Source: Actinomucor elegans (Eukaryota > Mucoromycota > Mucoromycetes > Mucorales > Mucoraceae). Taken from it: DNA of 64,000 nucleotides. Positions 6,742-54,462 of the stretch are shown one piece after another (position 1 is the first letter of the stretch; each line of letters opens with the position of its first letter). The translations under genes and the position numbers were made by a program. A model generated the notes under the pieces. The model did no database searches. It had not been told where the DNA came from and saw only the letters and a list, made by a program, of their open reading frames with translations. The DNA lies in the NCBI GenBank assembly GCA_026027325.1, contig JAMSLZ010000011.1, forward strand, positions 62,001-126,000, in the 5' to 3' direction.

Positions 6742-9700
6742 CTAATCTAATGTTGTGCTAGTAGACTCATCAGGAGTTCTACTATCTAAGAAAGTGGTGA
6801 TAACAAGGCTGTTATCTGTCTTGAAGGAATTGAGGACCCAAGCTGAGGACCAAGTATCGTCATGAATAACACATCGCCAATGTGCAGCCCATAGGGTATA
6901 GAAGATCGAACCCAAAATGGAAAGCACATCCACATCAAGCGGTTTACAATCGAGGCCACTTAGTGAGACAAGAGCAGCCCAGATGTTCGCATCAGACGGA
7001 AAGTCTTCACCCAAAGAGAGAAAGGCAAGAGCTTGACGCCAGTAGTCGGACTTTTGCGGGCAACCGACAGCAAAATGGTACAAGTCTTCATTAGCACCGC
7101 AAAGAACACAGAAAGGAGAAGGAAACTGCTGAGGAGACCAGCGATTCACCCGAGAGCGATAGCCAATCTTGTCGTGAAGCAGGCGCCACCAGGGAGTGAA
7201 AGCCTTGGCCACCATGGGGAGGGACCAAAACAAACGCCAAAAGAAAGGACGCAAAAGCAAGTGAGAAGCCACAGCCAAAGGAGGACCAGGACGAGCAGAA
7301 ACAACAGAGTGATCAGCGTGCCAGAAGCGACGCAAGACACCAAGGGGGAGTTTGGCAACAGATACCACCGAAGAGGGACCAGAAGGAACAGTCCAATGGC
7401 GGGTCGATGGCATCCAGGAAGAAGCACCAGAACGAGAAACAGGAAGAGCACGCTGTTCATCGTAAGTGAAAGCCACTTTTGACCTGATCACCGGAGGGAG
7501 AGCCAGAGAAACAGGACCAAAAGGAGGACTTAAACCATAATAGACCGACTTGACATGGCTGGAACTTGGCAGAGCCTTATTGGAGAACAGGGTACCAGAG
7601 TGAATATTCCAGTGGAATATGTCAGACATGAGATACTTGGGAGCAACAGACGAAGGAACAAAACCAGGAGACAGATCATGATCAACACCAGGAACAGAAG
7701 ACACCACACAGCACAAAGGAAGATCCAGGAACCACCGAGAAGACCAAGAAGAATGCACCACCAGAGGAGGCAGCCGAACCAGAAGCTTGGTTAGATGATC
7801 CAGGGTTGGAATGCTATTCAACCGAGGCTTGAATCGTGATGGATACATCAACCAAGGGAGAACCGAAGAATGACCAGAATAGGCTTGAAAGCAGAACACC
7901 AACCAGGGAGACACAAAATCCGAAGACACCAGAGGACGAAGCAGACGTTGAACATACACAAGATGCAAAGCAAAGCTCTGATCTTGGATGTCCACCAGAC
8001 CAACACCACCATACTTGCGAGGAAGACACAAAGAAGACCAAGACGGCGCGGGCCAAAACGATGCCACATACTTGCGCACTACTGCCTTGATATCCAGAAG
8101 CCACTTGCCAGGCACAGGAACCACACGAAGAAGATGATACACCTTGGAGAGCAACAGAGAATTCGCCACCAGACCAGTACCACGAATAGACAGGTGTCGT
8201 TCACGAAGCATGTTTGCATGCCTCTCCAACTTGACTTTGACACCATCCAGGAAATGCAGCAACTGAGCATCGGTATGATACAGCGGATAACCAAGGTAAC
8301 GCACCGAGCCAACAGACGACGAATCATGCCACTCTACACCAGCAGCAGAAGCTATATCAACCCAAGGCTGATGAGCCACACCAGAAAGAGACACCAGAAC
8401 AGTCTTGCTGAGATTCACCTTGGCGTTGGAGGCACGACCATAGACCTCAAGAAGAGACAGAAGCACCAACCATTCACCAGGCGAAGACAAGAACACCTCA
8501 AGATCATCGGCATAACTGAGAAGCTTGATAGGAGCCGGAGGAGAAGAACCACTGACAAAATCAAGCGGGTAGTTACCCGTATCATCACCCAAATCAAGAT
8601 GGACCTTTTGAGGGTTAGGGAGCCAAGTCCGAGGAACCACCACAGGAGCCAGAGAAACACCAGACAGAGAAGAACAAGCCAAGACAGACCGCAACAGGGG
8701 TTCAAAAGCCAAGTTGAACAACAGAGGTGACAGTGGATCACCCTGCCTAAGGCCACGCAACTGAGGAACAGCTGCTCCTAACCACCCGTTAATGGACACG
8801 GAGATCTTGGTACCAAAGAACAAAGAAGAGAGACAACCAACCAGACCAGAAGGAAAACCAAAACGAAGCAACACACGGCGAAGATACTCAGGGTGGACCC
8901 GATCATAAGCCTTCTCTTGATCAAGTAACACCGCAACTTGAGGAAGGTTTGGAGCCACCGACCGAAGATTAGCCATCAACGTTTGATTCAACCACCCATT
9001 ATCCGAGATCAATCGATGAGGAAGGAACCCAGTTTGATAGGGATTGATCAGCTTGGGAAGAACACGGTTGAACCTATTGGCCAACAACTTGGTAAACAAC
9101 TTGGCATCAGAGTTGATCAGAGACAGAGGACGCCAGTTAGCCAAGAGCAGAGGATCACCTTTCTTGAACAAAAGCACCATTCGAGTTTGTTGCCACGAAG
9201 GAGGAAACACACCAGAGAAAGCACCACCAAGGACTGCCACCAGCAAGTCCAGAAAAGGTCGCGAACGACCAGCCAAGTAATGATATACCTCGAAAGGAAT
9301 ACCATCTATGCCAGGGGACCGAGACCTAGGGGCGTGAGCCAGTAGATCCAGCACCGTAACGGCATTAGGCAGAGCCATCAGATACTTGGCATCATCCGAA
9401 GACAACACCACTTCTTCAGGAATACCATTCAAAAGAGAATCCACGGCTTCGGCATCGATGTCGTCCGGGGTGTATAGCTTTTGGTAAAAACCGCGAGCCT
9501 CCCGAAGTATATCAGCCCCTTCCACCAAGACCTCACCAGTAGTAGAGCACTTCAAGGACTGGATTGTCTGTTGAGACTGGCGATCCTTGATGACACGATA
9601 GAAATACTTGTTGTTACGTTCACCCAGTTCATGCCAACGAGTGGCAGAGCGAAGCATATTCTGGCGTGTTTCTTTCTGAATCTGACCATCAATCAATTTC

Positions 9701-14240: not shown

Positions 14241-14298
14241 TCAATAACTTTTCTTAATTGCGCTTTCTCAATCGTTATAGTTTGCTTTGGGATTTAAC

Positions 14299-35151: not shown

Positions 35152-35458
35152 TAACCAAACTAATACTGGTTCTTTTATACTTTACATTATCTTACGTCAT
35201 TGTTCGGTAAATTCGGATTATTTCGGATTATTTCGGATCAACGATAATGGATTTATAGCACCATTGTTATGTTATATTACGTTTGGCGCGGGTGAGGAAA
35301 AAACTGTTCACGTGCATACCCTATATTCAATCGGCTGTGTAACATACTGTAATGTCCTGATATATTAATGAATACATTGGTATAATAGGGCTTTACTTCA
35401 GCATTCTAATGATAGCTTTTTCATAACCGTACATCCATTTGGGGCCGAGAGGCCAATG
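35152..35458. other. Tc1 debris
   Basis: No gene. GGTGAGGAAAAAACTGTTCA at about 35289-35308 is an end-like motif of Tc1 copy B. A tandem TCGGATTATT occurs near 35215-35240. Confidence 0.45.
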
Positions 35459-35678
35459 ATAAACATTTACAACTACTTAATATTTTTAACTTTCCTAAAA
35501 AATCAAGGCATAAATATAATGTTGCCTTTTTATCCATAAATAAAATGTTGGTTACTTGTTCTATTTTAGAATAAAATTTATTTATATTATTATTTGTATT
35601 CAAAAAAATCTATTATTTCCTAATTTTTTTATATATTGTACTATTTTGAACATATTTCTGTAATACTAAATGTTCTTC
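35459..35678. repeat. Solo TDR-2 terminal repeat (220 bp)
   Basis: Same 220 bp as the two repeats of TDR-2 (49016-49235, 51299-51518), with no difference seen. Flanked by AATG on both sides (35455-35458, 35679-35682), a 4-bp target duplication. Arrangement like a solo LTR. It sits against a Tc1 relic. Confidence 0.9.
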
Positions 35679-35680
35679 AA

Positions 35681-36302
35681 TGATATGGAGCTGTATGACA
35701 TCACGGGGAGTAGGCTACGCTAGTCAAGTACTACAGAAAACTATGGATTCATACTGTTATATTGAATTCTTGGGTACATCGTTTAAGGATACTTTGGACT
35801 ACTACGGCTGCAATCCTGATGATGTGATTCTTCAGCAAGATGGCGACTCAAAACATACATCCAAAGTAACTAAAAAATGGCTTAAAGCAAACAACATACA
35901 GTATATGAACAAGTGGTCACCATATAGCCCAGACTTAAATCCGATAGAACATCTATGGCATCATGTTAAGTCAAAACTAGGCCAATATGACACCCCTCCA
36001 AAAACAAAGCAAGAACTATTCAAACGATTTGAGACGGAGTGGTACAAATTTACCAAAGCAGACATGGAGCCGTACTATAACAGTTTACCTAAAAGAATAG
36101 AGCAAGTCCTTAGAGCTAAAGGTGGCTATACTCGATATTAAAAGACAGCACCTTTAATTCTCTCAGCCAAAAAATTCCAAAATATAATTTTAGTAAAGTT
36201 TCCAAATGTAGTTACTATACAGTTCATGTTTAAATTTGGCATATATCATTTAAATATACCAACAAACATACATTTAAAGTTTGGGCTTACTCGAGTGACT
36301 GT
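35681..36302 (+). pseudogene. Tc1-like transposase C-terminal half (copy C)
   Basis: Coding to 36141. Starts MIWSCMTSRGVGY. It has the second Asp in ILQQDGDSKH and Glu in NPIEHLWHH (35 residues apart) and ends YTRY. The first Asp and the HTH domains are missing. The element end GAGTGACTG followed by TA is near 36292-36302. Confidence 0.75.
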
Positions 36303-36769: not shown

Positions 36770-37051
36770 GGAGGTCATACAGATACTCGCAATTGTTGTA
36801 CAATTACTCGTACAGGTTCTGGGTTAGTGGATGACCTTAGGTATTTACTCATGGGCATATTTTTGGCTGCTGTGATGTTCTCTGGATATGTGTACCCATT
36901 TAAATGGCTATTTCCAATTTTTAAAACGGCTAGAAATATTTGGAATGCCGGAGACATATTGTATAACCACATTCTATTGCACCCGGTCATCCACTAACCC
37001 AGAACCTGTACGAGTAATTGTACAACAATTGCGAGTATCTGTATGACCTCC
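36770..37051. repeat. TDR-3 left terminal direct repeat
   Basis: 282 bp with 67-bp inverted ends (GGAGGTCATAC ... GTATGACCTCC). Same orientation as 40651-40932. Confidence 0.92.
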
Positions 37052-37193
37052 TAGTGGGATATCTCACCACACACTGGTAGACATACGTTCCATAGCAAGG
37101 TAGTAGAGAGGGGGGGGGGCCAAAAGGGATGATCTTGTCCAGAGACCTGAATAGTTTCAGCCCCCCTGGGAATGGAAACTAAGGAGCCTAAGG
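37052..37193. repeat. TDR-3 left inner inverted repeat
   Basis: 142 bp beginning TAGTGGGATATCTCACC. It holds a run of nine or ten G near 37110 and is matched exactly, as far as I can see, by the inverse at 40509-40650. Confidence 0.9.
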
Positions 37194-37249
37194 TTGTAGT
37201 ACGAGTAACATGTGTTGACAGTTGGGCGAAGCTTTTAAAAAACAAGTAC

Positions 37250-38920
37250 TCATACGTTGGTGATCTCGCATTCTACATCACGAACACCACGTACTTTCTT
37301 TACTCGAATTAGACAAACATAGAACAAGGTATGCTTCTCTAGTTGCTTCTCTACAACTTGTTTTAAACCTGGACTGCAACGGACTGAGGTACCATTGGAC
37401 AGCCGTAAGTGGAGATAGTTCTTACTTCGGAATGTACCATAACCATATCCGGTTACTTGGTACTTCACACCTACTTTCATGAAAGAATAATCTGGTTTAG
37501 CTCCAGACACTGGGAAGGGATCTAGATGCTGTAATAGTTTATCATCATGTGTCTCCTTGGCCAACCTGATGGTCGCAAGTTTATCTCCTCTTTCAGGTCG
37601 CAGTCTACTTTTTGGCCATTCGAGGGTGATGTTGCGGAAAGAACAAATCCCTAAATCACCAAAAGAAGCTGCTTTGTTGGTTAAATCCTTTCTATAGGGT
37701 GTTAAGGAGTTAGATATCCCTGGAACCAACGTGATGGCAGAACATCCTTCTTCACGACGATATATGCTGTCTTCGAGTATCTTATATTCATGACTATTCT
37801 TCTCAAACTTAACTACCAGATAGTGGATGGGCCTATCGTTAAAGCTAAAGTTTGCAAGATGGAGCATTACGTACTCTTCTGGTACTTTTGTATGAATTAT
37901 GCCTTGCATTCGCTTGGTAAGGGAGTTCCACCAATGGCAGTAAGCGAAAGTCTTTGTTTTGGGAACATATATAGCTGCCATTTGCGTAAGGTTCTTAGCT
38001 AGTTGCTTCCATTGTCTGTCGAAGCTGACCTTGTATGTTGGACAATTATCAAGGAACTCAAGGACCCTAGACATAGTTTTGGTATAATAGCTTTCCTTCT
38101 TGAGTTGGGTGTTATAAAACGTAATTTCTATTCTGGTCATACCATTACCACGATACTTATTAAGGCGCTCTTGAAAATCTTTGTCAGGGTTAGAAACCAA
38201 GTGGTGCAATTGGGAGCCGATTAAAGACCTTAATTCACGGCTTTCAAGCATTTGGACAAACTTGTTATAGATCTTTATTCGTAAGGGTATCTTAGCACTA
38301 GAACTATCATGCTGCCTCCATGATAAGCAGTTATCACCGACTGAGTGACGATCGTTGACAATATCTTTATCTTCTACGCCATTAGAAGTAATGTACTCCT
38401 TAATAATATCGCGTGTTGATATGTAGGCGCAGTCGATGCTTATATCCAAGTCATGTAAAAGGATATAATTCTTTGCAACCTTACAGCATATCTTCTTAAG
38501 CTTTGGCCACAGTTCCCCATAGCTGATATTCTCAAACGAAACTCTCAGCGATATATAGCCTGGCTGGTATTTATCCCAGCTAATACCTGATTCTTTTGCC
38601 TCCCTTTGTTGGATGTCGTTGACAAGTTTATCTTCACCAGCATGCCATTTACCCCTACCAGTGTAAAAGAGCTTGAACTGCTCCACTTGTAGGTGACGGG
38701 ATAGAAGAAGCCGAAGAATGCTCATGTACATTCCTACAGCAGAACTTAGCTTCTCTTGTTCCCAATGTACAGCACACCAGAAGACAATGCTGTCGCAGAA
38801 TACTGCGCTAACATAATCCCAGCCCACACGTTCTCTCGTCGCGCTACCACAAGTGTAATCGACACCATAGATATTACTAAGGTATTGGTTGTAATCTATA
38901 AAGATTTTACTAAGGGGCAT
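37250..38920 (-). CDS. TDR-3 accessory protein, possible replication-initiator-like protein
   Basis: 556 residues, intact, ATG at 38918-38920. I do not recognise it with certainty. HDLDISID (156-163), KIYNKF (216-221) and TRIEITFY (262-269) follow the order of conserved blocks in Rep_trans-type initiators and relaxases (pT181 Rep, NicK): an R/H-x-DLxxxD strand, a xxYNK block, then R-x-E-x strand. The C-terminal third (about 440-556) looks like a separate beta-rich domain (KYQVTGYGYGTFRSKNYLHL). Together with the transposase it is bounded by the TDR-3 repeats; the two genes are about 100 bp apart on the same strand. Alternative: an unrelated DNA-binding accessory protein. A profile comparison would decide. 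Confidence 0.4.
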   Translation of the reverse strand: MPLSKIFIDYNQYLSNIYGVDYTCGSATRERVGWDYVSAVFCDSIVFWCAVHWEQEKLSSAVGMYMSILRLLLSRHLQVEQFKLFYTGRGKWHAGEDKLVNDIQQREAKESGISWDKYQPGYISLRVSFENISYGELWPKLKKICCKVAKNYILLHDLDISIDCAYISTRDIIKEYITSNGVEDKDIVNDRHSVGDNCLSWRQHDSSSAKIPLRIKIYNKFVQMLESRELRSLIGSQLHHLVSNPDKDFQERLNKYRGNGMTRIEITFYNTQLKKESYYTKTMSRVLEFLDNCPTYKVSFDRQWKQLAKNLTQMAAIYVPKTKTFAYCHWWNSLTKRMQGIIHTKVPEEYVMLHLANFSFNDRPIHYLVVKFEKNSHEYKILEDSIYRREEGCSAITLVPGISNSLTPYRKDLTNKAASFGDLGICSFRNITLEWPKSRLRPERGDKLATIRLAKETHDDKLLQHLDPFPVSGAKPDYSFMKVGVKYQVTGYGYGTFRSKNYLHLRLSNGTSVRCSPGLKQVVEKQLEKHTLFYVCLIRVKKVRGVRDVECEITNV

Positions 38921-38942
38921 TGTGTAGTATATGCTTAGAATA

Positions 38943-38960
38943 TGCTACCATGTGCTATTT
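38943..38960 (-). promoter_or_regulatory. Shared GGTAGCATA motif before the accessory gene
   Basis: The minus strand reads CACATGGTAGCATA about 25-40 nt before the ATG. The transposase gene of the same element has CATTTGGTAGCATA in the like place (about 40464-40480). A family-specific promoter element is inferred. Confidence 0.4.
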
Positions 38961-39019
38961 AAAAGGCTTAAATATTCCATATATTTTAACAAGTTTTAAA
39001 AAACATCCCCTTGTGGAAC

Positions 39020-40429
39020 CTACTTCTTCCGCCTTCTTCTAACGTCTTTCTCATACTCGATAATAATATCAGAGTCGTCGAAGTTGTTAGGAGAAAGCCA
39101 ACTATTGCTACTCTCATCATAGCCTACCCACCTAACCAAATACTCTCTACGATGCTTTGGTCCACGATGCCCAACAATGGCCTCAACCTCGTAGTGTCCT
39201 TGTGGTAAGTCCTCGTCGATGGGTTCGTCATCAGAGCCATTATCTTCGTTCACCCCCAAAGAGAGAAACTGCTGCTGTATTTCTTTTACCATCTCAGCAT
39301 CTTGGGACTTTTCCGCAATTGTAAGGGTACTTACTACGTCATAGACATTCTTACTGCTGCCATTTGGAAAGTCGAAGTTAGGCTGCATCCAAAAAGTATG
39401 TTGTTCAGAGCTAGAAACACACCCAATGTTAACAAACTTCTTGATGTTTGCAAGAAGACATGCAAGCTTGAACTGTACCGTGAATGTCTCCATCTCGGTA
39501 ACTCGAATAACGCCTTTACCGTTGAATCGTTGAAATAAGGTTCCAATCTCTCCAAACGTTGCTTCTATCGAGGAACGAAAGCTTCCAAGAATGGAGTTGT
39601 AATTAACTTCTTCTTGTTTCAGACCCACTCCTCGAGACTTACGGATAGGGAATACAAAATTATGGCGATCCAGGTGACGATTATTTGCTACAATACGATC
39701 TATAAAAGTAGTGTATCCACCATCAACGACAACACAATCGTACTTACTAATCTTCTTCTTCAACCGCATATCAGCAAGCATAGACCCATCGTTGTTATCT
39801 GAACATGGTGCCGCATCGGAGACAAACAACACCATCCCATTAACATCTGTACATACTTGTGTTCGGAAGCCAGACTTCTTAAGCTTATACGAATAGAACA
39901 TGGCATGATCTGCAGCGTTGATATATGTTGCTCTAGAATCATGTCCATCTATCATCAAGGTAACATGCTTAAAATCTTCAGGGTTTCGGTGAAGAGCACA
40001 CATAATTCGCAGCTTTGTTGAGGAGAACATCTTTCGTAGGCAATAGTCCAAACAGGTATTCAGCTCCTCTCCGTATTTTGTATAAAAGGCATTGTAAATA
40101 GCATGGTAGCTACTAGAAGGGATGAAACGTGCCATATGCGCAATAGAACAACCGGTAAGAAGCTGGTAGATTATCAACAATCCTTTGTCCACGTTGGAAT
40201 ATGGACCAGGATATTCTTGGTTTGCAAACAGCTCTACGAGAAAGAAAAAAACAGGTATGTAGCCAAGATGCTCCAACACATAAGTTTTTACATGCTGGAT
40301 ATCTTTTACAGGCTTAACCTCAGACCGGTGATACTTAGTCTTTTCCAACACTGGCCAATCTTTAGAAAGAAACTGCCAGTAAGTCGCCATAAGCAACGTA
40401 AACGCATCTACTATTTCTTTCGGAAACAT
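39020..40429 (-). CDS. TDR-3 DDE transposase with C-terminal chromodomain
   Basis: 469 residues, intact. Homologous along its length to the TDR-1 and TDR-2 proteins (YHRSEV, VDKGLLIIYQLLTGCSI). Catalytic residues: D161 in LMIDGHDSR, D236 in VVVDGGYTT and E289 in FRSSIEATFGEIGTLFQRF. The R-xx-IE-xxF...RF helix is typical of IS5/Harbinger-like (DDE_4) folds. The chromodomain is about 408-460 (YEVEAIVGHRG, EYLVRWVGYDESSNSW), followed by a basic tail. It would bind the element ends; the chromodomain may steer insertion to methylated histone H3, as in chromoviral integrases. The latter is inference. Confidence 0.85.
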   Translation of the reverse strand: MFPKEIVDAFTLLMATYWQFLSKDWPVLEKTKYHRSEVKPVKDIQHVKTYVLEHLGYIPVFFFLVELFANQEYPGPYSNVDKGLLIIYQLLTGCSIAHMARFIPSSSYHAIYNAFYTKYGEELNTCLDYCLRKMFSSTKLRIMCALHRNPEDFKHVTLMIDGHDSRATYINAADHAMFYSYKLKKSGFRTQVCTDVNGMVLFVSDAAPCSDNNDGSMLADMRLKKKISKYDCVVVDGGYTTFIDRIVANNRHLDRHNFVFPIRKSRGVGLKQEEVNYNSILGSFRSSIEATFGEIGTLFQRFNGKGVIRVTEMETFTVQFKLACLLANIKKFVNIGCVSSSEQHTFWMQPNFDFPNGSSKNVYDVVSTLTIAEKSQDAEMVKEIQQQFLSLGVNEDNGSDDEPIDEDLPQGHYEVEAIVGHRGPKHRREYLVRWVGYDESSNSWLSPNNFDDSDIIIEYEKDVRRRRKK

Positions 40430-40508
40430 GTTTATTTAAGAATGCTGTAGTATAATAGGAGTTGTATGCTACCAAATGCTGTTGTTCACTCCCAGTCCTA
40501 CAGTGTAG

Positions 40509-40650
40509 CCTTAGGCTCCTTAGTTTCCATTCCCAGGGGGGCTGAAACTATTCAGGTCTCTGGACAAGATCATCCCTTTTGGCCCCCCCCCCTCTCTACT
40601 ACCTTGCTATGGAACGTATGTCTACCAGTGTGTGGTGAGATATCCCACTA
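40509..40650. repeat. TDR-3 right inner inverted repeat
   Basis: Inverse of 37052-37193, ends CCCACTA against the right direct repeat. Confidence 0.9.
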
Positions 40651-40932
40651 GGAGGTCATACAGATACTCGCAATTGTTGTACAATTACTCGTACAGGTTC
40701 TGGGTTAGTGGATGACCTTAGGTATTTACTCATGGGCATATTTTTGGCTGCTGTGATGTTCTCTGGATATGTGTACCCATTTAAATGGCTATTTCCAATT
40801 TTTAAAACGGCTAGAAATATTTGGAATGCCGGAGACATATTGTATAACCACATTCTATTGCACCCGGTCATCCACTAACCCAGAACCTGTACGAGTAATT
40901 GTACAACAATTGCGAGTATCTGTATGACCTCC
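40651..40932. repeat. TDR-3 right terminal direct repeat
   Basis: 282 bp, same orientation and, as far as seen, same sequence as 36770-37051. Followed by ATT. Confidence 0.92.
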
Positions 40933-41169: not shown

Positions 41170-41571
41170 GAGCTACATTACATACCATTAATAATTAATA
41201 TATATATTATAATTATTTTTATATTATTAAATTAAAATTATATAGTTTTCTTTATTTATCAAGTTGTAAGTTGCTAAAAAACTTACGACGTGCTTTTTAA
41301 TCAATTTTAAAAGAAAAAAATTGTCGCACAACAGGGTTTCGATCTGGTGTGAAATATTATGAAAAAAAAAAGTTTAATTGTATTGAAAAGTAATATAAAA
41401 GTTTAATCTTTATAAGTTTTGCATAATTATTGCAATTTCTTATTTTTACGTTAATTACCAAACTTTCAAAAATTACAATAAAAAAGTGTTAAACAAAAAA
41501 AAATATAATTACAAAAAACACTATTTAATTTAAAAACTAATTTTTATTTTTTTTTATTTTTAACGTTGCTC
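41170..41571. repeat. TDR-1b left terminal direct repeat
   Basis: 402 bp, GAGCTACATT...AACGTTGCTC. The transposase stop codon follows at once. Differs from the right repeat mainly in the length of A- and T-runs. Confidence 0.92.
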
Positions 41572-43023
41572 TTAGACATTGATAGAATCCCAATAATTCT
41601 TTAGAATATCTTTTGTTTGAAAGTCACTTTCTTTAATCCAACTGTTTACTTGTTTTTTATAATTTCTCCATTTTACCTCATATTCATATTCATTATTTAT
41701 TTTTCTATGTTGTATTATATATTGTATCTCATATACATTTTTATCAGTACTAGTATTATTATCATCATTATCAATTTGCATTTTATTTTTAGTTAAGCTG
41801 ATTTTAAAATTATTATCAGATAAAAGTTTATTTAGAAGATCATCCTGTAAACTTTTCATATTCATTATATTTTCTTTTTTATATACCGCCTTTATTGATT
41901 TAGTTTCGATATTAAAATCCTTAATAGTATCAAAAAAATCAAAATCTTTTTCCATCCATAGTTTATAATAAGATTTTTCTTCTATATTATTTTTTTCTAC
42001 AAAGTTTTTGATATTAAATAAAACTAATGCTAATTTAATCTGAATGTTATATGTTTTTTCTTTTGTAATTCTTGCATTGGCTTTGTAGCTAAATCTTTTG
42101 AATATATTTGAAAATTTTGCAAAAAAAGTTTCAATGGTACTTCTATATGATCCTAATTGTTTATTAAAATTTAATTCATCAACATCTAAATCAATATTTT
42201 TTTCTTTTTTTATTGGAAAACAAAAGTTATTTTCTGTAATATGTAATCCTACATTATTATATTTTTTTAAAATTTCATCTAATACATTTTCATATAATCC
42301 ATCATAGCATAAACAATCTGTCAGTTTAAAAAATTTCATTAAATTTATATTATTAATAAACATATTATCGTCATTATTAAATTTACATGGTAATGATTCT
42401 GAAACATAGATGATATATCCTGCTGAATCTATAATAAATTGGGTGTTTAATGCATTTTTCTTTAATTTATAAGAATATAAATCTTTTTTATTTAAATCAA
42501 TATCTTCAATTACTATTCTATTATGTCTTCCATCTAAAAGTAATGTACAATGTTCAAAATTTTTAGGATTGTATAATTTACTATATAATAATCTAGTAAT
42601 GCTGTTGCTAAAACAATAAAACATCGTATTATTAACCCAATTTTCTAAAAAATCTATATTATCAATAAAAACAGATTTATAAATTCTATAAAAAGAATCA
42701 TTCTCATCATAAATTTTCATATCATTAATGGAACAACCATCTACTAATAATTTTAAAATCAAAATTCCTTTTTCTACATTATATACTGGTGATGGCATTT
42801 TAATTTTACTACAAATTTCTGTTAAAAATACAAATATAGGAATTGCACCTAATAGTTCATATAATTCTTTTTTTATATTTTGAATGTTAATAAAATTTCC
42901 TATTTTACTTCTATGATATTGTTTTTCAATATTAGATTTATATGTATTATCTAAAAATTTCCAATAATTTGTTTTAATCTCTTCATATTCATTTTCTAAT
43001 AGTTCCTCTATTTCAATTGTCAT
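41572..43023 (-). CDS. TDR-1 DDE transposase with chromodomain, intact
   Basis: 483 residues, ATG at 43021-43023. Catalytic residues D164 (LLLDGRHNR), D241 (CYDGLYENV) and E298 (YRSTIETFFAKF, then NIFKRF). The chromodomain spans about 429-480: YEIQYIIQHRK, YEYEVKWRNYKK, NSWIKESDF. Extremely rich in Lys, Asn, Ile because of the A+T. This is the only intact copy of the family here; copy a differs by a one-base frameshift and few substitutions, so spread is recent. It would act on the element ends. Confidence 0.87.
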   Translation of the reverse strand: MTIEIEELLENEYEEIKTNYWKFLDNTYKSNIEKQYHRSKIGNFINIQNIKKELYELLGAIPIFVFLTEICSKIKMPSPVYNVEKGILILKLLVDGCSINDMKIYDENDSFYRIYKSVFIDNIDFLENWVNNTMFYCFSNSITRLLYSKLYNPKNFEHCTLLLDGRHNRIVIEDIDLNKKDLYSYKLKKNALNTQFIIDSAGYIIYVSESLPCKFNNDDNMFINNINLMKFFKLTDCLCYDGLYENVLDEILKKYNNVGLHITENNFCFPIKKEKNIDLDVDELNFNKQLGSYRSTIETFFAKFSNIFKRFSYKANARITKEKTYNIQIKLALVLFNIKNFVEKNNIEEKSYYKLWMEKDFDFFDTIKDFNIETKSIKAVYKKENIMNMKSLQDDLLNKLLSDNNFKISLTKNKMQIDNDDNNTSTDKNVYEIQYIIQHRKINNEYEYEVKWRNYKKQVNSWIKESDFQTKDILKNYWDSINV

Positions 43024-43207: not shown

Positions 43208-43606
43208 GAGCTACATTACATACCATTAATAATTAATATATATATTATAATTATTTTTATATTATTAAATTAAAATTATATAGTTTTCTTTATTTATCAA
43301 GTTGTAAGTTGCTAAAAAACTTACGACGTGCTTTTTAATCAATTTTAAAAGAAAAAAATTGTCGCACAACAGGGTTTCGATCTGGTGTGAAATATTATGA
43401 AAAAAAAAGTTTAATTGTATTGAAAAGTAATATAAAAGTTTAATCTTTATAAGTTTTGCATAATTATTGCAATTTCTTATTTTTACGTTAATTACCAAAC
43501 TTTCAAAAATTACAATAAAAAAGTGTTAAACAAAAAAAATATAATTACAAAAAACACTATTTAATTTAAAAACTAATTTTTATTTTTTTTATTTTTAACG
43601 TTGCTC
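43208..43606. repeat. TDR-1b right terminal direct repeat
   Basis: 399 bp, same orientation as 41170-41571, followed by AATA. Confidence 0.92.
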
Positions 43607-43667: not shown

Positions 43668-46600
43668 CTAAAAGGTGTTCACAATCTTTCTTGGGAGAGA
43701 GACGGATATCATTGAGTTTTCTACGTAAGGCTCAGTAGCAACGCAGGTATGAATACGATGCACTGGCAAGATGGAATGCTTATCGATGGTTTCAAAAGCT
43801 GATTGCCAAACGAAAGCAGAGTGGGCGTTAAATGATTCGAAATAATAAGGCGATTTCTTGAACCATTCTACAAAAGCAAATACATGAGTCACGTCTTGAG
43901 TTTGTGATCTTTGATACACTGGCATTTCAACAACATGACTAAAGAAGTAGGCTACTCTTCCAACACGAAATTCACCATTGACTAAGGCTTCAATGTATAT
44001 TCCTCGTTTGGTTCTTGAAGAAACGGAGCGAATTTGCTGGCCTAGCAGATTAATTTCAGTGAACTTTTTGATTTTCATACTTGCTATAAGAGTTGATCTA
44101 ATTCGATGATGAGGAAGACGGTATTGAACGACATCGTAGTTTAATCGGTAATAGACGTCCTTGTAAAAGTCAAGAAGGCCCTGATGATGCATGCTGTTCA
44201 TCACTACACTTCGATCGAAATGCTTGTGAGAAAAGAAAGACGGAGGAAGAGGTTCAGAACCTGTGACAAGACGTGCGTCATCAGTTGAATGACTAATAAA
44301 AGTAGCCAAATCAAAGCGTTGAGTATTACTACTCAAATCAGTTCCAAGACTATCTTCATCATTATCCAAAGAATCAGCAATACCAGGCAAAAGAGAAGAG
44401 AGAACATTCATCATGATTGGGTTGTTAAATATTCGAGCAGAAAAGCCTTTGATATAATCTTGGGCATGAACATGCTGCAAGTATTTCTTCATGAAGGTCG
44501 CTTCTAATCCTTGCTTGAAATTGGTATTGACATCTTTGATATCACCATTAGCTCTTTCCATGCCATACAACCAGGTCGAATAGATAGGACCAAAGTCACG
44601 TATCGTTTCCTTTAGGTGCAGGTGTAAATGGAAATTAGGTGAGATAATGTTGGCACCGTAGATAACCGAACATTCCTGACCAAATTCTTTCAAAAACTTA
44701 TGAGCTTCGTCAATTTGTGCATTTGTGATGGAGGGCCCACCTAGAATTTGATTTGCTTTCACAAATTTCATCCAACTAGTCAATGCATCACCAGTGATCT
44801 TACCTTTTAAAAGTAAACCAGAATACACGAAAACCCAACTTCGCCATTCATCGCCTTTCATTCCAACGAACCCAGAAGCAATTTTGTGAGCAATCGGTGT
44901 AAACTGCGGGGGCACTGCAATATTCTTGGCTCTTGCTGCCATTACACGAAAGTCTGCGTCAGATAAGTAAACTTGACGAGTAACTGGATTGACAGTCTTT
45001 TTCCACCAATCCATCATCCGCTTTGCTGTGCCTAAGTACAGGTTATGCAAAGCATCCACTGTTGTGCATCTGATCAGATCAAAATACTCCAAACGATGGA
45101 GCTCGCTATACCGTGTACCGTACATTTGTTCTAAGCGCTTTCTATCACCAGTTGTTAATGCTTCCTTCCATTTCAATGCTTGCTGCCTGTTTGATTGCCC
45201 GTCTCTTCGATTCCAAGTAAGATCATCGAGGTTTGATAAATCGCGAGCTTGTGGACGACCAGACTGACCAAGATAACGATCCGAGCATTTATGACAAGGA
45301 ATGAACGAATTGAAGGCAGTAAAACCACAAACCTTCTTTACGGCCGGAAGGTCACAGTTTACCGACATCAATGCTGCACGAACAGACCTACCATCACTCA
45401 AAATCATACCTTCAAACAACACAAGTAATTCATCAACCATTGGTTTTAAAAAATGATTAATTGAATCCAACTCAGGTTCCTTTGGCCCAGGCATGATCCC
45501 AACAAGAATCAGATTCTCTCTGCGAAACCTTTCTGCTCGAGGGAGGTTATTTACAATAAGGTAAATGGCTCCAACAGAATAATTCATCGTCTTGGTGGGT
45601 GAAAACCAATCGACATTAAGTGAAAGCATGAGTGATCCAGGTTGAAGAACAAAAGGGAGACCATCCTTCTTGAAGTTGCTCCAGTAATTGCCGTCAAATA
45701 CATCAAACAAACTGTCTTTAATTGTTGTTCGACTTCTCCAGTTTTCAATTGCAGATGTAAAATGAGGACGAGAGAAAAAGCGCTCAAGAGTAAGTTTTAC
45801 CGAGTTGTAAATGTATTCTTTTTTGGTTGTAAATTGCCACCAGATGAAAGAACTGTCAACTGGTTATGGCATTTTGTTGGTTTGTACGCAGTGATGATCA
45901 TATTTTCGCAACGTTTAATAGTACGGTGAACGATAACAGCGTCATAATCGTAAATACAGTTGCATCTATCGCATACTACGTATGTCCTTACACCTATAAT
46001 ACAACATATTAAAAAAGCTTAGTACTTATATATAAATCAAGAGTATATTTTTCAAAAACAAATACCTTTGGTGACGAAATCAGCTTCAACAATATTTCTA
46101 GCGGTAGCAAGCTTGGAAGGGAAGCGGTAAGGCAAGCTTACAAGGATGAATACAGCGTTGAAAAGCTTGAGGAGCAATTCTGCTGTTGCAATTGATATGC
46201 CGTTGTTTTGAAACAATACGAGAAATACCATCAAGAAGTATGGTAAAACAAGTTCTTCAGTGATATCTACTACTGTTTCTTGTATTTCAACGTCTTCATT
46301 TTCTGTCAGATATAACACAACGTTGAATCAGTCAATTGATTTGTACAAAAATCATTTTTAAGAAACATACCATCAATCAGAGTCTCGCCCTGGCAGTAAT
46401 CAAAATTTTCAACATTGTCAACTTCAAAGTTGACGTCTTGAATTTCTTCAGTAATATCATCATCGTTATCACTAACAAGTTGTTCTTCATTTTCTAGTGA
46501 TTCCGTTTCATTGGTGGTAATTGCTTCTTCTTCTACAATGACTATAAAGACAATTTGTAAGTTCGAAACTATGAATAAGCAAGAAAAGAAATATATCTTA

Positions 46601-47899: not shown

Positions 47900-49015
47900 T
47901 TAATCTAATGTTGTGCTAGTAGACTCATCAGGAGTTCTACTATCTAAGAACGTGGTGATAACAAGGCTGTTATCTGCCTTGAAGGAATTGAGGACCCAAG
48001 CTGAGGACCAAGTATCATCATGAATAACACATCGCCAATGTGCAGCCCATAGGGTATAGAAGATCGAACCCAAAATGGAAAGCACATCCGCGTCAAGCGG
48101 TTTACAATCAAGGCCACTTAGAGAGACAAGAGCAGCCCAGATGTTCGCATCTGACGGAAAGTCTTCACCCAAAGAGAGAAAGGCAAGAGCTTGGCGCCAG
48201 TAGTCGGACTTTTGCGGGCAACCGACAGCAAAATGGTACAAGTCTTCATTAGCACCGCAGAGAACACAGAAAGGAGAAGGAAACTGCTGAGGACACCAGC
48301 GATTCACCCGAGAGCGGTAACCAATCTTGTCGTGAAGCAGGCGCCACCAGGGAGTGAAAGCCTTGGCCACCATGGGAAGAGGCCAAAACAAACGCCAAAA
48401 GAAAGGACGCAAAAGCAAGTGAGAAGCCACAGCCAAAGGAGGACCAGGGCGAGCGGAAACAACAGAGTGATCAGCGTGCCAGAAGCGACGAAAGACACCA
48501 AGAGGGAGTTTGACCACAGATACCACCGAAGAGGGACCAGAAGGAACAGTCCAATGACGGGTCGATGGCATCCAGGATGAAGCACCAGAACGAGACACAG
48601 GAAGAGCACGCTGTTCATCGTAAGTGAAAGCCACTTTTGACCTCATCACCGGAGGGAGAGCCAGAGAAACAGGACCAAAAGGAGGACTTAAACCATAATA
48701 GACCGACTTGACTTGGCTGGAACTTGGCAGAGCCTTATTGGAGAACAGGGTGCCAGAGTGAATATTCCAGTGGAATATGTCAGACATGAGATACTTGGGA
48801 GCAACAGACGAAGGAACAAAACCAGGAGACAGATCATGATCAACATCAGGAACAGAAGACACCACACAGCACAAAGGAAGATCCAGGAACCACCGAGAAG
48901 ACCAAGAAGAATGCACCACCAAAGGAGGCAGCCGAACCAGAAGCTTGGTTAGATGATCCAGGGTTGGAATACTATTCAACCGAGGCTTGAATCGAGATGG
49001 ATACATCAACCAAGG
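47900..49015 (-). pseudogene. LINE-A copy 2 ORF2, C-terminal part
   Basis: About 370 residues from YPSRFKPRLNS to the end, including FTPWWRLLHDKIGYRSR and the CVLCG finger. Continues 51519-54462 after removal of TDR-2 (AAGG duplicated). Confidence 0.9.
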
Positions 49016-49235
49016 ATAAACATTTACAACTACTTAATATTTTTAACTTTCCTAAAAAATCAAGGCATAAATATAATGTTGCCTTTTTATCCATAAATAA
49101 AATGTTGGTTACTTGTTCTATTTTAGAATAAAATTTATTTATATTATTATTTGTATTCAAAAAAATCTATTATTTCCTAATTTTTTTATATATTGTACTA
49201 TTTTGAACATATTTCTGTAATACTAAATGTTCTTC
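49016..49235. repeat. TDR-2 left terminal direct repeat
   Basis: 220 bp, ATAAACATTTAC...AAATGTTCTTC. Confidence 0.93.
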
Positions 49236-49246
49236 TTATTAATTGA

Positions 49247-50683
49247 TTAATTATTTTCTATTGATTTCCAATAATTCAAAATAGTATCATGTGATGTAAA
49301 ATCTTTTTCTTTTACCCATGAATTATGTTCTTTACCATACTTTTTCCATTTTACAAAATATTCATATAAGTTCTTTACTTTTTTGTGTTTAATTATATAT
49401 TGTATTTCATATATATTTTGATCATTATTACTAGTGATATCTTCCTCCATTTGATCCATAATATCTATATTCACTTCATTTATATTTAAATTATTTAAAA
49501 ATTGATTTTGTAATGATTTTATATCAACGATATTTTCTATTTTATATTGTGTTTTTAATGTTACTTCTTTATTCATTTCAATATTATTTTTATAATAATA
49601 ATCAAAATTATCATTTAGCCATTTGTTGTAATGGGCATTTTCTTCAATTCCAAATAACTCTGTAAAATATTTTATGTTCAGTAATACTATTGCTAATTTT
49701 AGCTGTATATTATATGTCTTATTATCTGTTATTCTAATCTTATTTTGTCCACTAAATCTTTTAAAAATACTACCTAATTCTGCAAAATATTTTTCTATTT
49801 TTGACCTTAATCCACCTAATTCTTCATTGAATTTTTTTTCATCTATGGTTAATTCAACTCCTTTATCTTTTTTTATAGGATAGCAAAAATTTTTCAAGGA
49901 TATATTAAATCCAATATTACTAAATTTTTCTATAAATTCTTTTACTGTGTTTTCATATAATCCATCAAAACATATACAATCTATTTCATTATAAAACTTA
50001 TTGATATTTATGTCTAAAAGCATTTTATCATCAGTATTATTTCTACAAGGTAAGGAATCAGATATATAAACACATATTCTATTAATATCTATAATAAATT
50101 GTGTATTTAATCCATTTCTTTTTAATTTATACGAGAATAACTCTTTTTTATCTAGATTAATATCTTGATATGTTATACGATTATGGTGACCATCAATTAG
50201 TAATGTTACATTATCTAACATCATTGGATTAAATTTCTTAGCACAAAGTAATCTCAATGTATGTGTAGAAAAACATTTTTCTAATTTATTATTTATCCAT
50301 TTTTCCAATAAATCATAATTATTTATATATAATGATTGATATAATTTATAAAAACTAGTAGATGGAATATACATTTCCATTTCATTTATAGATTTTCCAT
50401 TTAATAAATGTTCTAATAATATCAATACTTTATCTGCTGTTATATATGGACCTGGTAGTTTTATATTGTTACATAAATCTGTCAAAAATACAAATGGAGC
50501 AATACTTCCTAATTTAATATATATATTTTTTTTAATTCTATCAATATTTGGTATACTCGTTATTTTAGATCTATGATATTTCAATTCAACTTTATATATA
50601 TATTCATTTTTCATAAATTTCCAATACCTATTGTAAATATTTCTGTATTCATTTTCAATTAATAAGTCTATATGAGTGTTCAT
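49247..50683 (-). CDS. TDR-2 DDE transposase with chromodomain
   Basis: 478 residues from the ATG at 50681-50683 (MNTHIDLLIENEY). The frame is open 14 codons further to a TTG that lies in the AAAATTGA motif, so the later ATG is preferred. D164 (LLIDGHHNR), D240 (CICFDGLYE), E297 (LRSKIEKYFAELGSIFKRF). The chromodomain is at the end: YEIQYIIKHKK, YEYFVKWKKYGK, NSWVKEKDF. About half identical to the TDR-1 protein by eye; less like TDR-3. Intact. Confidence 0.87.
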   Translation of the reverse strand: MNTHIDLLIENEYRNIYNRYWKFMKNEYIYKVELKYHRSKITSIPNIDRIKKNIYIKLGSIAPFVFLTDLCNNIKLPGPYITADKVLILLEHLLNGKSINEMEMYIPSTSFYKLYQSLYINNYDLLEKWINNKLEKCFSTHTLRLLCAKKFNPMMLDNVTLLIDGHHNRITYQDINLDKKELFSYKLKRNGLNTQFIIDINRICVYISDSLPCRNNTDDKMLLDININKFYNEIDCICFDGLYENTVKEFIEKFSNIGFNISLKNFCYPIKKDKGVELTIDEKKFNEELGGLRSKIEKYFAELGSIFKRFSGQNKIRITDNKTYNIQLKLAIVLLNIKYFTELFGIEENAHYNKWLNDNFDYYYKNNIEMNKEVTLKTQYKIENIVDIKSLQNQFLNNLNINEVNIDIMDQMEEDITSNNDQNIYEIQYIIKHKKVKNLYEYFVKWKKYGKEHNSWVKEKDFTSHDTILNYWKSIENN

Positions 50684-50721
50684 AAACAAATAAAATGATG
50701 TATTTTTATATAAAGAGAAAT

Positions 50722-50729
50722 TCAATTTT
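50722..50729 (-). promoter_or_regulatory. AAAATTGA motif upstream of TDR-2 transposase
   Basis: Minus-strand AAAATTGA 39-46 nt before the ATG. A second copy of the surrounding ~27 bp (ATAGAAAATATTAAAAATTG) lies about 47 bp further up, where its TGA serves as the stop codon of the small gene. Confidence 0.42.
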
Positions 50730-50773
50730 TAATATTTTCTATATTTAATAAACTTTTATTTATATATGAAAAT

Positions 50774-51142
50774 TCAATTTTTAATATTTTCTATATTTTC
50801 CAAGAACTTATGATTTCTTTTTGCATAATCTAACCATGATTTAAAATTATAAATTTCTTTAATACTAACATATCCTTTTCTTAAACACCAGGATTTGAAA
50901 TATTCATTTCTAACTTTTTCGTTATCATCTAAAATTGTTTTTATCACTAAATTGGCATGGATATTTGTATTGTTTTCACCAACATCATAGAAAGGACCAC
51001 TATATAAAATTTTATCAATATTTTTTATATTTCCAACCCATTGCAGTATTTTCTTGTTTAATATTTCGGATGATTTATTCTTGACATCTTTTTTTTCAGG
51101 ATTTAGAGTTAAAACCACAGCATAATAATAGATTTTTTCCAT
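50774..51142 (-). CDS. TDR-2 small accessory gene, possible HUH-like protein
   Basis: 122 residues from the ATG at 51140-51142 (MEKIYYYAVVLTLNPEKKD); the frame upstream opens only with TTG. YAVVLTLNP, NIHANLVIK and DYAKRNH stand in the order of motifs 1, 2 and 3 of small HUH Rep proteins (strand with TLN, H-x-x-hydrophobic, Y-x-K). The second His of motif 2 is Asn and the Tyr-Lys spacing is one residue short, so this is a weak case. Size fits a minimal endonuclease domain. It lies upstream of the transposase on the same strand with no AAAATTGA of its own. Otherwise unknown. Confidence 0.3.
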   Translation of the reverse strand: MEKIYYYAVVLTLNPEKKDVKNKSSEILNKKILQWVGNIKNIDKILYSGPFYDVGENNTNIHANLVIKTILDDNEKVRNEYFKSWCLRKGYVSIKEIYNFKSWLDYAKRNHKFLENIENIKN

Positions 51143-51298
51143 TAAATATAATATTGATGTTATTTTAAAAATAATTCTCAAATATTATAGATACTTTTAT
51201 ATTTTCCAAAATATCATGCCAAGAATTAGATGCCAAGGAAGTTGTTTTTAGATTTCTCAATGTGATTAAACGCAATGGAAGTCTAAAAATAGGACAAG

Positions 51299-51518
51299 AT
51301 AAACATTTACAACTACTTAATATTTTTAACTTTCCTAAAAAATCAAGGCATAAATATAATGTTGCCTTTTTATCCATAAATAAAATGTTGGTTACTTGTT
51401 CTATTTTAGAATAAAATTTATTTATATTATTATTTGTATTCAAAAAAATCTATTATTTCCTAATTTTTTTATATATTGTACTATTTTGAACATATTTCTG
51501 TAATACTAAATGTTCTTC
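51299..51518. repeat. TDR-2 right terminal direct repeat
   Basis: 220 bp, no difference seen from 49016-49235 or 35459-35678. Followed by AAGG. Confidence 0.93.
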
Positions 51519-54462
51519 AAGGGAGAACCGAAGAATGACCAGAATAGGCTTGAAAGCAGAACACCAACCAGGGAGACACAAAATCCAAAGACACCAGAGG
51601 ACGAAGCAGACGCTGAACATACACAAGATGCAAAGCAAAGCTCTGATCTTGGATGTCCACCAGACCAACACCACCATACTTGCGAGGAAGACACAAAGAA
51701 GACCAAGACGGCGCGGGCCAAAACGATGCCACATACTTGCGCACTACTGCCTTGATATCCAGAAGCCACTTGCCAGGCACAGGAACCACACGAAGAAGAT
51801 GATACACCTTGGAGAGCAACAGAGAATTCGCCACCAGACCAGTACCACGAATAGACAGGTGTCGTTCACGAAGCATGTTTGCATGCCTCTCCAACTTGAC
51901 TTTGACACCATCCAGGAAATGCAGCAACTGAGCATCGGTATGATACAGTGGATAACCAAGGTAACGCACCGAGCCAACAGACGACGAATCATGCCACTCT
52001 ACACCAGCAGCAGAAGCTATATCAACCCAAGGCTGATGAGCCACACCAGAAAGAGACACCAGAACAGTCTTGCTGAGATTCACCTTGGCGTTGGAGGCAC
52101 GACCATAGACCGCCTCAAGAAGAGACAGAAGCACCAACCATTCACCAGGCGAAGACAAGAACACCTCAAGATCATCGGCATAACTGAGAAGCTTGATAGG
52201 AGCCGGAGGAGAAGAACCACTGACAAAATCAAGCGGGTAGTTACCCGTATCATCACCCAAATCAAGATGGACCTTTTGAGGGTTAGGGAGCCAAGTCCGA
52301 GGAACCACCACAGGAGCCAGAGAAACACCAGACAGAGAAGAACAAGCCAAGACAGACCGCAACAGGGGTTCAAAGGCCAAGTTGAACAACAGAGGTGATA
52401 GTGGATCACCCTGCCTAAGGCCACGCAACTGAGGAACAGCTGCTCCTAACCACCCGTTAATGGACACGGAGATCTTGGTACCAAAGAACAAAGAAGAGAG
52501 ACAACCAACCAGACCAGAAGGAAAACCAAAACGAAGCAACACACGCCGAAGATACTCAGGATGGACCCGATCATAAGCCTTCTCTTGATCAAGTAACACC
52601 GCAACTTGAGGAAGGTTTGGAGCCACCGACCGAAGATTAGCCATCAACGTTTGATTCAACCACCCATTATCCGAGATCAATCGATGAGGAAGGAACCCAG
52701 TTTGATAGGGGTTGATCAGCTTGGGAAGAACACGGTTGAACCTATTGGCCAGCAACTTGGTAAACAACTTGGCATCCGAGTTGATCAGAGAGAGAGGACG
52801 CCAGTTAGCCAAGAGCAGAGGATCACCTTTCTTGAACAAAAGCACCATCCGAGTTTGTTGCCACGAAGGAGGGAACACACCAGAGAAAGCACCACCAAGG
52901 ACTGCCACCAGCAAGTCCAGAAATGGTCGCGAACGACCAGCCAAGTAATGATATACCTCGAAAGGAATACCATCCATGCCAGGAGACCGAGATCTAGGGG
53001 CGTGAGCCAGTAGATCCAGCACCGTAACGGCATTAGGCAGAGCCATCAGATACTTGGCATCATCCGAAGACAACACCAAATCTTCAGGAATACCATTCAA
53101 AAGAGAGTCCACGGCTTCGGCATCGATGTCGTCCGGGGTGTATAGCTTTTGGTAAAAACCGCGAGCCTCCCGAAGTATATCAGCCGCTTCCACCAAGACC
53201 TCACCAGTAGTAGAGCACTTCAAGGACTGGATTGTCTGTTGAGACTGGCGATCCTTGATGACACGATAGAAATACTTGTTGTTACGTTCACCCAGTTCAT
53301 GCCAACGAGTGGCAGAGCGAAGCATATTCTGGCGTGTTTCTTTCTGAATCTGACCATCAATCAATTTCTCTAGCTCATGCACCACCTGAAGAGGAAGTGA
53401 ATCATCACTAGGTTGAATTGACGGTGTAGCATCACTAGCCATAATACCTGAGACAGAAGAGGAAACAGCCTTCATACGTTCCTGTTGTAAAGCAGCAACC
53501 TTGTTCTTGAATCGAGCCTTAGCACCCCAAGCGTACTTTTGCGCACAGCACTTGAGCAACAACTTGAAGGATTCCCATTGAGATTGGACCCTCAAAGGTT
53601 CACCCTTACCACCAGGGCTAGCATTGTCACCATCACCACCAGAAGATTCGAAAAAGAGAGACACCGTCTTGTCCAGCAATAGGAGAAACTCTGAATCCTC
53701 CAGCAGAGTGGGATTAAAGCGCCAACAGCCAGGACCAATACGAGCACAAGCAGGCTGCAGATCGATTGTCAAAAGACAGTGATCGGTCCACACACCAGGA
53801 ACATAATGGACTTGACCATTCACCAACCGAGTCACCAGCGAAGTATGACCAAAGATATAATCAATAGTAGTACCAGCCCTAGGAAAAGTAATAGGACCGT
53901 CCGGGAAACAGTTGTTAAAGTGGAGACGAAGCCAATCATACAGCGGAGCCACAGAGGAAAGACTTGTCTCGGCAGAAGAGTGCAGATGAATGTTGAAGTC
54001 ACCTACCAACATCCAAGGCGTGTTGGACACCTCAGACCACAAAGCAAGAGAGAGAAAAGATTGTATAAACAGTGGACGGTCCGAAGACTGTGCCGGTGCA
54101 TAGATATTGGCCACACGACACAAGACATTATGCTGGGCATCCTTGACAGTAGCCACAACACAACGCTCATCCAGGAGAACTTGAGTAGCATCCAAAGAAA
54201 GACCAGGCTTGAGACAGACAATGGCACAATGTTTGGACACCACAAAGGGACAGCGAGGAAAGAAGAAAGAGAAAGAGCGGATTTGATGATCAGTGAGAGA
54301 AGATTGAGAATAGAAGTGAGATACCTCTTGCAAGCAAAGGATATCCACACCAAGAGAACGAGCGCGTAGGTAAGAAGCGAACTCCTTTTGTGTAGTTTTT
54401 TGGGACTCCATAAAAATGCTACGCACATTTAAGGAACCCAATCGAATGTTTTGACCTAGCAT
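51519..54462 (-). pseudogene. LINE-A copy 2 ORF2, N-terminal part (endonuclease and RT)
   Basis: About 979 residues with the same endonuclease and RT motifs as copy 1. It has one extra codon (LLEAVYG against LLEVYG). Stops in TDR-2 sequence. ATG overlaps the ORF1 stop. A truncated product with RT but without the zinc-finger tail could still be made. Confidence 0.9.

Follow-up and report, generated by a model that had tools for sequence, protein, structure and literature searches.

The closest described counterparts of the element reported here are the KolobokP transposons of seven animal phyla (Kojima & Bao 2022, PMC9587614). According to that report, these elements consist of two long terminal direct repeats (LTDRs) around an internal region (INT), occur also as solo repeats and as (LTDR-INT)n-LTDR multimers with target site duplications (TSDs) at the outer ends, and encode a Kolobok transposase with zinc fingers together with a His-Me homing endonuclease; their LTDRs are approximately 450 or 660 bp long. 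The same report set KolobokP apart from all other DNA transposons, and its authors suggested that the homing endonuclease may make up for disruption of the build. We analysed a 64,000-nt stretch of the fungus Actinomucor elegans (assembly GCA_026027325.1, contig JAMSLZ010000011.1, positions 62,001 to 126,000; hereafter the window), in which an element, TDR-2, has the same LTDR-INT-LTDR arrangement around a gene for a different DDE transposase, of the DDE_Tnp_4 type with a chromodomain.

The complete TDR-2 element spans positions 49015-51518 of the window (2504 bp; Table 1). Its two LTDRs showed 100% identity across 221 bp, and the longest exact repeat in 200 Markov sequences of the same composition did not exceed 19 bases. 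Each LTDR has terminal inverted repeats (TIRs) of its own, in which 11 of the 16 terminal bases pair, a value equalled by 0.6% of random placements within the repeat. When the flanks of the element were joined across one AAG, they matched a sister long interspersed nuclear element (LINE) at 59 of 60 bases, from position 7827, which confirmed the empty site claimed in the preliminary description of this locus. That description, made from the letters alone, had also recognised identical direct repeats around a DDE-chromodomain transposase gene and a small gene, as well as a solo repeat with its own duplication, all of which were borne out. Its repeat length of 220 bp omitted one G at the start, and the duplications that it gave as AAGG and, at the solo, AATG had to be shortened to AAG and AAT. 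The G was invariant as the first base in 96 of 96 genomic LTDR units with both ends, whereas the base following the 3-bp right TSD was G in only 20 of the 38 loci with a repeat pair; we therefore counted the G as part of the element and the TSD as 3 bp. A 4-bp TSD was rejected on this ground, and a few 4-bp cases persist (loci L032 and L046 and the window's copy of family D, described below). Between the two genes of TDR-2, a 44-bp sequence was found in tandem at 50703-50798 (86%; 93% over 42 bp).

Table 1. Positions of TDR-2 and of related features (window coordinates, except for family F)
Feature	Position	Strand	Remarks
TSD AAG, left copy	49012..49014		following G assigned to the element
TDR-2 left LTDR	49015..49235	+	221 bp; own imperfect TIRs GATAAACATTTAC / GAAGAACATTTAG
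TDR-2 INT	49236..51297		2062 bp; two minus-strand genes inside
TDR-2 transposase gene	49247..50683	-	478 aa; DDE_Tnp_4 and C-terminal chromodomain (Pfam)
TDR-2 small gene	50774..51142	-	122 aa; conserved, no Pfam family
TDR-2 right LTDR	51298..51518	+	identical to left LTDR
TSD AAG, right copy	51519..51521
Empty site	7854..7856		uninterrupted target AAG in sister LINE
Solo TDR-2 LTDR	35458..35678	+	TSD AAT at 35455-35457 and 35679-35681
Family E left LTDR	36770..37051	+	282 bp; perfect 67-bp TIRs; outer TSD ATT
Family E second gene	37250..38920	-	556 aa
Family E transposase gene	39020..40429	-	DDE_Tnp_4 and chromodomain
Family E right LTDR	40651..40932	+	identical to left LTDR
Family D left LTDR	41170..41571	+	402 bp; presumably TDR-1 of the preliminary description
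Family D transposase gene	41572..43023	-	DDE_Tnp_4 and chromodomain
Family D right LTDR	43208..43606	+	0 substitutions and three gap columns against left LTDR
Family F element	L072, L154, L155		about 3.07 kb; two adjacent inverted-repeat modules (207-bp inverted repeats and transposase; 203-bp inverted repeats and 201-aa frame)

The genome search that the preliminary description had proposed was performed across the whole 36.5-Mb genome (27 contigs), with patterns allowing up to three mismatches. It yielded 96 LTDR starts and 98 LTDR ends, which formed 96 units with both ends. The start and the end of INT were each found 41 times, and an LTDR adjoined 41 of 41 starts and 41 of 41 ends, against the possibility raised beforehand that most copies might have one repeat only beside the genes. 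The inner junctions were fixed, as 41 LTDRs were followed by TTATTA and 41 were preceded by GGACAA; no TSD was present at the inner LTDR/INT junctions, where the single chance match (TTA at L028) is to the outer flank of the element. Fifteen LTDRs were solos (96 - 82 + 1 shared; each was listed individually). Among the 58 stretches fetched, 38 were pair loci, one of which, L056, was a tandem dimer with the outer TSD ACT/ACT. At L023 and L059, INT was found on one side only within the stretch fetched, and we infer from the spacing that L051 and L052 are one element split by a long insert.

LTDR-INT-LTDR was shown to insert as a whole with a 3-bp duplication. A 3-bp TSD was located outside the pair at 34 of the 38 pair loci (mean, 3.0; maximum, 11 in 10,000 shuffles), and not around each repeat, as independently inserted elements would have it. 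The remaining four loci were L032 and L046, which have 4-bp duplications, L045, which is a chimera of its neighbours L044 and L046, and L018, which has none. Of the solos, 13 of 15 were also flanked by a 3-bp TSD. The 47 sites with a TSD revealed a palindromic target preference, C/ANT/G, with C at -4 in 36, A as the first base in 32, T as the third in 28, and G at +4 in 24. The loci were clustered: 30 of 58 were located less than 100 kb from a contig end, against an expected fraction of 0.148. Another locus was no more than 30 kb away for 34 of them, whereas random placement gave 5.2 on average and 17 at most. Flanks matched the window's LINEs in 4 of the 58 stretches and families D, E or F in 7.

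Insertions were also found inside TDR-2 copies. A 6.2-kb insert occurred at two different positions, in the pair loci L045 and L055; with end repeats of 506 bp and an open frame of 1671 aa, it is probably a long terminal repeat (LTR) retrotransposon. L042 contained a 162-bp insertion at INT position 1099-1103.

The TDR-2 transposase matched Pfam DDE_Tnp_4 (PF13359) at 34.5 bits (gathering cut-off, 24.8) and a C-terminal chromodomain at 32.4 bits (cut-off, 25.1), and a scan of 18 family members detected both domains in all 18 (E<=0.1). Residues D164, D240 and E297, invariant in the transposase alignment, are read by their motif as the putative catalytic triad. The top sequence matches in the Protein Data Bank (PDB) were chromodomain proteins, aligned over the chromodomain, and the two species-named homologues of the transposase came from Mucor flavus. 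No reverse transcriptase (RT) domain was found by Pfam in either open reading frame (ORF) of TDR-2, as the preliminary description had stated.

DDE_Tnp_4 is the domain of PIF/Harbinger and IS5-type transposases. To our knowledge, described PIF/Harbinger elements have neither long direct repeats nor solos. As reported (PMC2213677, PMC9179366), these elements have short TIRs (14-25 or 25-50 bp), a second protein that is typically Myb/SANT-like and, among the plant members, the TSD TTA/TAA. TDR-2 resembles PIF/Harbinger elements in its IS5-like DDE transposase, its 3-bp TSD and its TIRs beginning with G; however, TTA or TAA accounted for 4 of the 47 TSD sites, the TIRs lack the plant start G(N)5GTT, and no Myb/SANT-like second ORF was present in the window copies. 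Because these last three features depart from those of Harbinger elements, we call the transposase PIF/Harbinger-like and have not filed it as Harbinger. No chromodomain fusion in PIF/Harbinger turned up in our search results from the open-licence PubMed Central (PMC) literature.

The 122-aa protein of TDR-2 had 12 homologues (46-99% identity), and its model showed a predicted ferredoxin-like alpha/beta fold (predicted local distance difference test score [pLDDT], 82.6). The model had no significant fold match, with 0 Foldseek matches at E<=0.001 and IS200/IS605 transposases among the weak ones. We considered an HUH (Rep/Y1) nuclease, since an H-x-N motif conserved on a strand and a tyrosine conserved in the last helix pointed to one by eye; profile searches and Foldseek did not establish this assignment.

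When the matches of a genome search with a 40%-identical homologue were grouped by score, they fell into no fewer than seven additional transposase families, and one copy per family was examined in full. Direct repeats were present in each copy examined of families A (LTDR, 220 bp), B (223 bp), C (239 bp), D (402 bp), E (282 bp) and G (292 bp), and no substitution separated the left from the right LTDR in any of the seven families with this build, TDR-2 included (one copy each). Between families, blastn detected one 61-bp LTDR stretch at 75% and nothing else. The imperfect TIRs of the LTDRs matched at 10 to 16 of 16 bases across families. All 10 ends in TDR-2, A, B, C and D read GANNNAC, a motif absent from E and G; it gives G(N)6GTT at one end each of C and D and at both ends in A. 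In further copies fetched, outer 3-bp TSDs were found in A (1/1), B (3/3), C (2/2), G (2/2), D (6/7) and E (7/9). A transposase tree was constructed from the families of this genome and homologues without names, with family C entered as a shortened ORF. TDR-2, A, B, C and D formed one clade with 55 homologues, and G, E and F were placed outside on long branches; the join of E and F was flagged as possibly false.

The direct-repeat build is not common to every family of this transposase, being present in seven of eight. In family F, the 207-bp repeats are inverted, and the 28 copies found made up 14 pairs and 0 solos. A 3-bp TSD was found at the outer edges of these repeats in 0 of 10 copies, because beyond one of these repeats the element continues with a second module, which has inverted repeats of 203 bp and an open frame of 201 aa. 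At the true outer ends, the 3-bp TSDs TCT and TAT were recognised by eye in two copies. The view that family F is a simple element ending in TIRs of 207 bp was thus withdrawn.

The strongest evidence for concerted evolution of the repeats was obtained for family D, in which it was shown by two subfamilies that differ at four LTDR sites (haplotypes CTTA and TCCG). Both LTDRs shared one haplotype in 11 of 11 elements, eight of one kind and three of the other, and random re-pairings were equally concordant in 118 of 20,000 trials. This test covered the window pair and 10 of the 12 listed pairs (the C26 pair and the 4.25-kb C2 pair were left out), the list comprising 40 of 108 candidates. Four changes are present in both LTDRs of one D lineage, and therefore one repeat was copied onto the other. 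The LTDR variants of TDR-2 are uninformative on asymmetric inheritance, because variation in attached repeats is confined to indels in T and A runs and to two private substitutions. In the window, the copy of family D described above has the 4-bp outer duplication AATA, and the family is also found at 1-2292.

Family E contains both direct and inverted pairs. Its repeats were counted from 40 of 65 candidates, and among these matches at least five direct and at least five inverted pairs surrounded a transposase match; three more pairs, two direct and one inverted, were without one. Inverted pairs argue for handling at the DNA level, because reverse transcription makes direct repeats, and repeat orientation is apparently irrelevant, because each repeat has an end on either side. 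Fifteen E repeats among the matches listed were unpaired; of nine fetched, three bordered inner sequence and six were true solos, four of which had a 3-bp TSD. The window copy at 36770-40932 has 142-bp inverted repeats just inside its LTDRs, and short versions of family E have a repeat spacing of about 2.12 kb versus 3.88 kb. A further E repeat on the minus strand at 14686-14969 (99% identical) is apparently a solo, with no matching 3-bp duplication (GTA/CGA).

The second gene of family E encodes a 556-aa protein with 107 homologues, of which the species-named ones came from Apophysomyces, Rhizomucor, Mortierella and Gryganskiella (Mucorales and Mortierella kin). One homologue is contained within a 970-aa Rhizomucor pusillus protein with a DDE_Tnp_4 domain (P0169), which may be a gene-model fusion. 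Profile comparison revealed no relation between the 556-aa and 122-aa proteins. The model of the 556-aa protein (pLDDT, 91.8) matched three type IV secretion chains in the PDB at E<=0.001 (template modelling [TM] score, about 0.1; probability, 0.44). Rolling-circle initiators (RepDE and Geobacillus Rep; six chains from three entries) took six of the places from rank 4 to rank 11 (lowest E, 1.2e-3; highest TM score, 0.30). Against a viral library, the best match was unnamed (E 1.5e-4, 90 columns), and an inovirus 'GST REP' ranked 14th (E 5e-3). No Rep match was found by sequence profile, and among the viral contigs searched, no relatives of the transposase or the 556-aa protein were confirmed. 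The weak resemblance of the predicted model to rolling-circle Rep proteins is a lead and not a result. Neither the 122-aa nor the 556-aa ORF of the window matched Myb/SANT or, in Pfam, a His-Me finger homing endonuclease; one of 41 members of the 556-aa alignment matched SANT at E 0.11.

Taken together, TDR-2 and its relatives are probably composite-like DNA transposons, in which a chromodomain-tailed DDE_Tnp_4 enzyme moves LTDR-INT-LTDR and the repeats recombine or are homogenised at the DNA level. The transposase would join the outermost ends to a new site through a 3-bp staggered cut. Either LTDR could supply an outer end regardless of its orientation, as the direct and inverted pairs suggest for family E. 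Homologous recombination between both LTDRs of one insertion would leave a solo, and reciprocal unequal exchange between LTDRs would generate a tandem dimer. Recombination or gene conversion, perhaps via a one-repeat circle, would keep the LTDRs identical, as they are seen to be kept in family D. The clustering near contig ends suggests that the chromodomain probably steers insertion to heterochromatin.

Since both ends are present in each LTDR, the solos could also be single LTDRs that transposed alone, in the manner of miniature inverted-repeat transposable elements (MITEs), moved in trans by the transposase. The TSDs at 13 of 15 TDR-2 solos and at four of six true E solos are compatible with such events, and LTDR excision is documented in KolobokP (PMC9587614). 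However, solo TSDs are predicted by lone transposition and recombination alike, and no LTDR-INT or INT-LTDR remnant was found among the 41 INT starts and 41 INT ends. The solos are also modest in number and appear older than attached LTDRs: private substitutions were commoner in solos (4/15) than in attached LTDRs (2/81; p=0.005), as expected if solos accumulate with age. We regard lone transposition as a somewhat unlikely source of the solos. The homogenised repeats of family D and the dimer L056 would be accounted for by a copy-out cycle as well, in which a circle made up of a single LTDR and a single INT, or else an intermediate initiated by Rep, reinserts and regenerates two repeats, comparable to IS26-like translocatable units and to the proposal made for KolobokP. 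In family E, rolling-circle initiators made up 6 of the 11 best PDB matches of the 556-aa model; however, the match is weak, the three matches with lower E values are components of type IV secretion, no clear Rep emerged from the viral library, and no profile matched. In families A, B and D, the gaps between LTDR and transposase gene leave little space for a second gene, and ordinary gene conversion accounts for the same data, which makes a copy-out cycle unlikely.

Paired identical direct repeats, solos and concerted evolution are features shared with LTR retrotransposons, and would fit a degenerate or parasitised retrotransposon that depends on reverse transcription in trans to restore its repeats; the 506-bp end repeats mentioned above indicate that an apparent true LTR retrotransposon is present in this genome. 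However, 5 of 10 family E pairs among the matches listed were inverted, which reverse transcription does not yield, the termini were GA..TC or GG..CC and not TG..CA, and the gene encodes a DDE_Tnp_4 transposase without an RT domain. No TGG primer-binding-site start followed the 5' repeat, as judged by eye against two window tRNAs only. A retroelement origin is thus very improbable and was rejected on account of the inverted pairs, the termini and the missing RT domain. Each LTDR is MITE-like in having TIRs at both ends, and two independent MITE insertions might by chance have bracketed the genes; given the fixed inner junctions, the lack of a TSD around each repeat, and a build common to seven of eight families, this explanation was rejected as exceedingly improbable.

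Several points weigh against the interpretation of these families as composite-like DNA transposons. Transposition, excision footprints and circles were unobserved. The identity of the LTDRs within TDR-2 says little, because the copies are young (84 of the 96 LTDR units are identical), and some T-run indels may stem from faulty assembly. Not every one of the 38 pair loci is independent, since L027 (minus strand) and L036 share flanks, as do L060 and L061, and L045 is chimeric with L044 and L046. Contig ends may in part be assembly breaks at repeats. The TIRs of A and C are weak (10/16; equalled by 3-5% of random placements). In family E, two of the five inverted pairs belong to one dimer (C21:2358212-2366250), which shares its middle repeat and has no outer TSD. 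The haplotype test in family D concerns four linked sites in one family, with three elements versus eight, and seven indel-only columns, mostly in runs, differ between both repeats of several D elements. Family F has the same transposase type without direct repeats.

The statement in the preliminary description that no named superfamily is built this way requires qualification. KolobokP (PMC9587614) shares the build with the elements described here, including LTDRs with their own short TIRs, solos, multimers, outer TSDs, a DDD/E transposase and 5'-RR..YY-3' ends. No report of this build with a DDE_Tnp_4 or PIF/Harbinger-like transposase, or in fungi, was found in our searches of the open-licence PMC literature. 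The present elements differ from KolobokP in their fungal host, in their LTDRs of 220-402 bp, in having a DDE_Tnp_4 transposase (Pfam) with a chromodomain and not a Kolobok transposase, in that no endonuclease was recognised in the ORFs scanned (122-aa and 556-aa), and in the occurrence of one family, E, with repeats in either orientation. They also differ from KolobokP-4N1, as none of the inner ends found for TDR-2 has lost its repeat (41/41 and 41/41). Bacterial composite and IS26-type pseudo-composite transposons, as treated in the KolobokP report (PMC9587614), similarly have two end modules, direct or inverted, that supply ends around an inner region; in the present elements, however, the end modules are short and without transposase, which is encoded in the inner region.

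The elements of A. elegans are a second lineage of the KolobokP architecture, apparently independent of KolobokP. That a second superfamily, here in a fungus, has this build in seven families whose repeats are unrelated suggests a stable and recurrent solution in the pairing of repeats, and the lack of a His-Me-type endonuclease in the ORFs scanned suggests that the build does not need such an enzyme. A wider proposal, which we consider rather unlikely, is that long terminal direct repeats represent a life style that DDE transposons took up on more than one occasion. It would parallel the LTR cycle but run through DNA only: a single repeat would become two via a one-repeat circle, perhaps Rep-initiated in family E, and both repeats would evolve as one. 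The two haplotypes of family D give direct access to the way in which a DNA transposon preserves the identity of its paired repeats, and natural direct and inverted versions of the build are available in family E. In annotation pipelines, such elements may be taken for LTR retrotransposons, and their solos for solo LTRs.

Other features of the window included a 680-aa ORF at 43668-45710 with a match to Transposase_21 (tnp2; E 5.9e-14) and a 1223-aa ORF at 2277-5948, which had no Pfam match at 0.01 and whose C-terminus appeared tyrosine-recombinase-like by eye only. A tandem array with a 30-bp period was located at 13777-14291.

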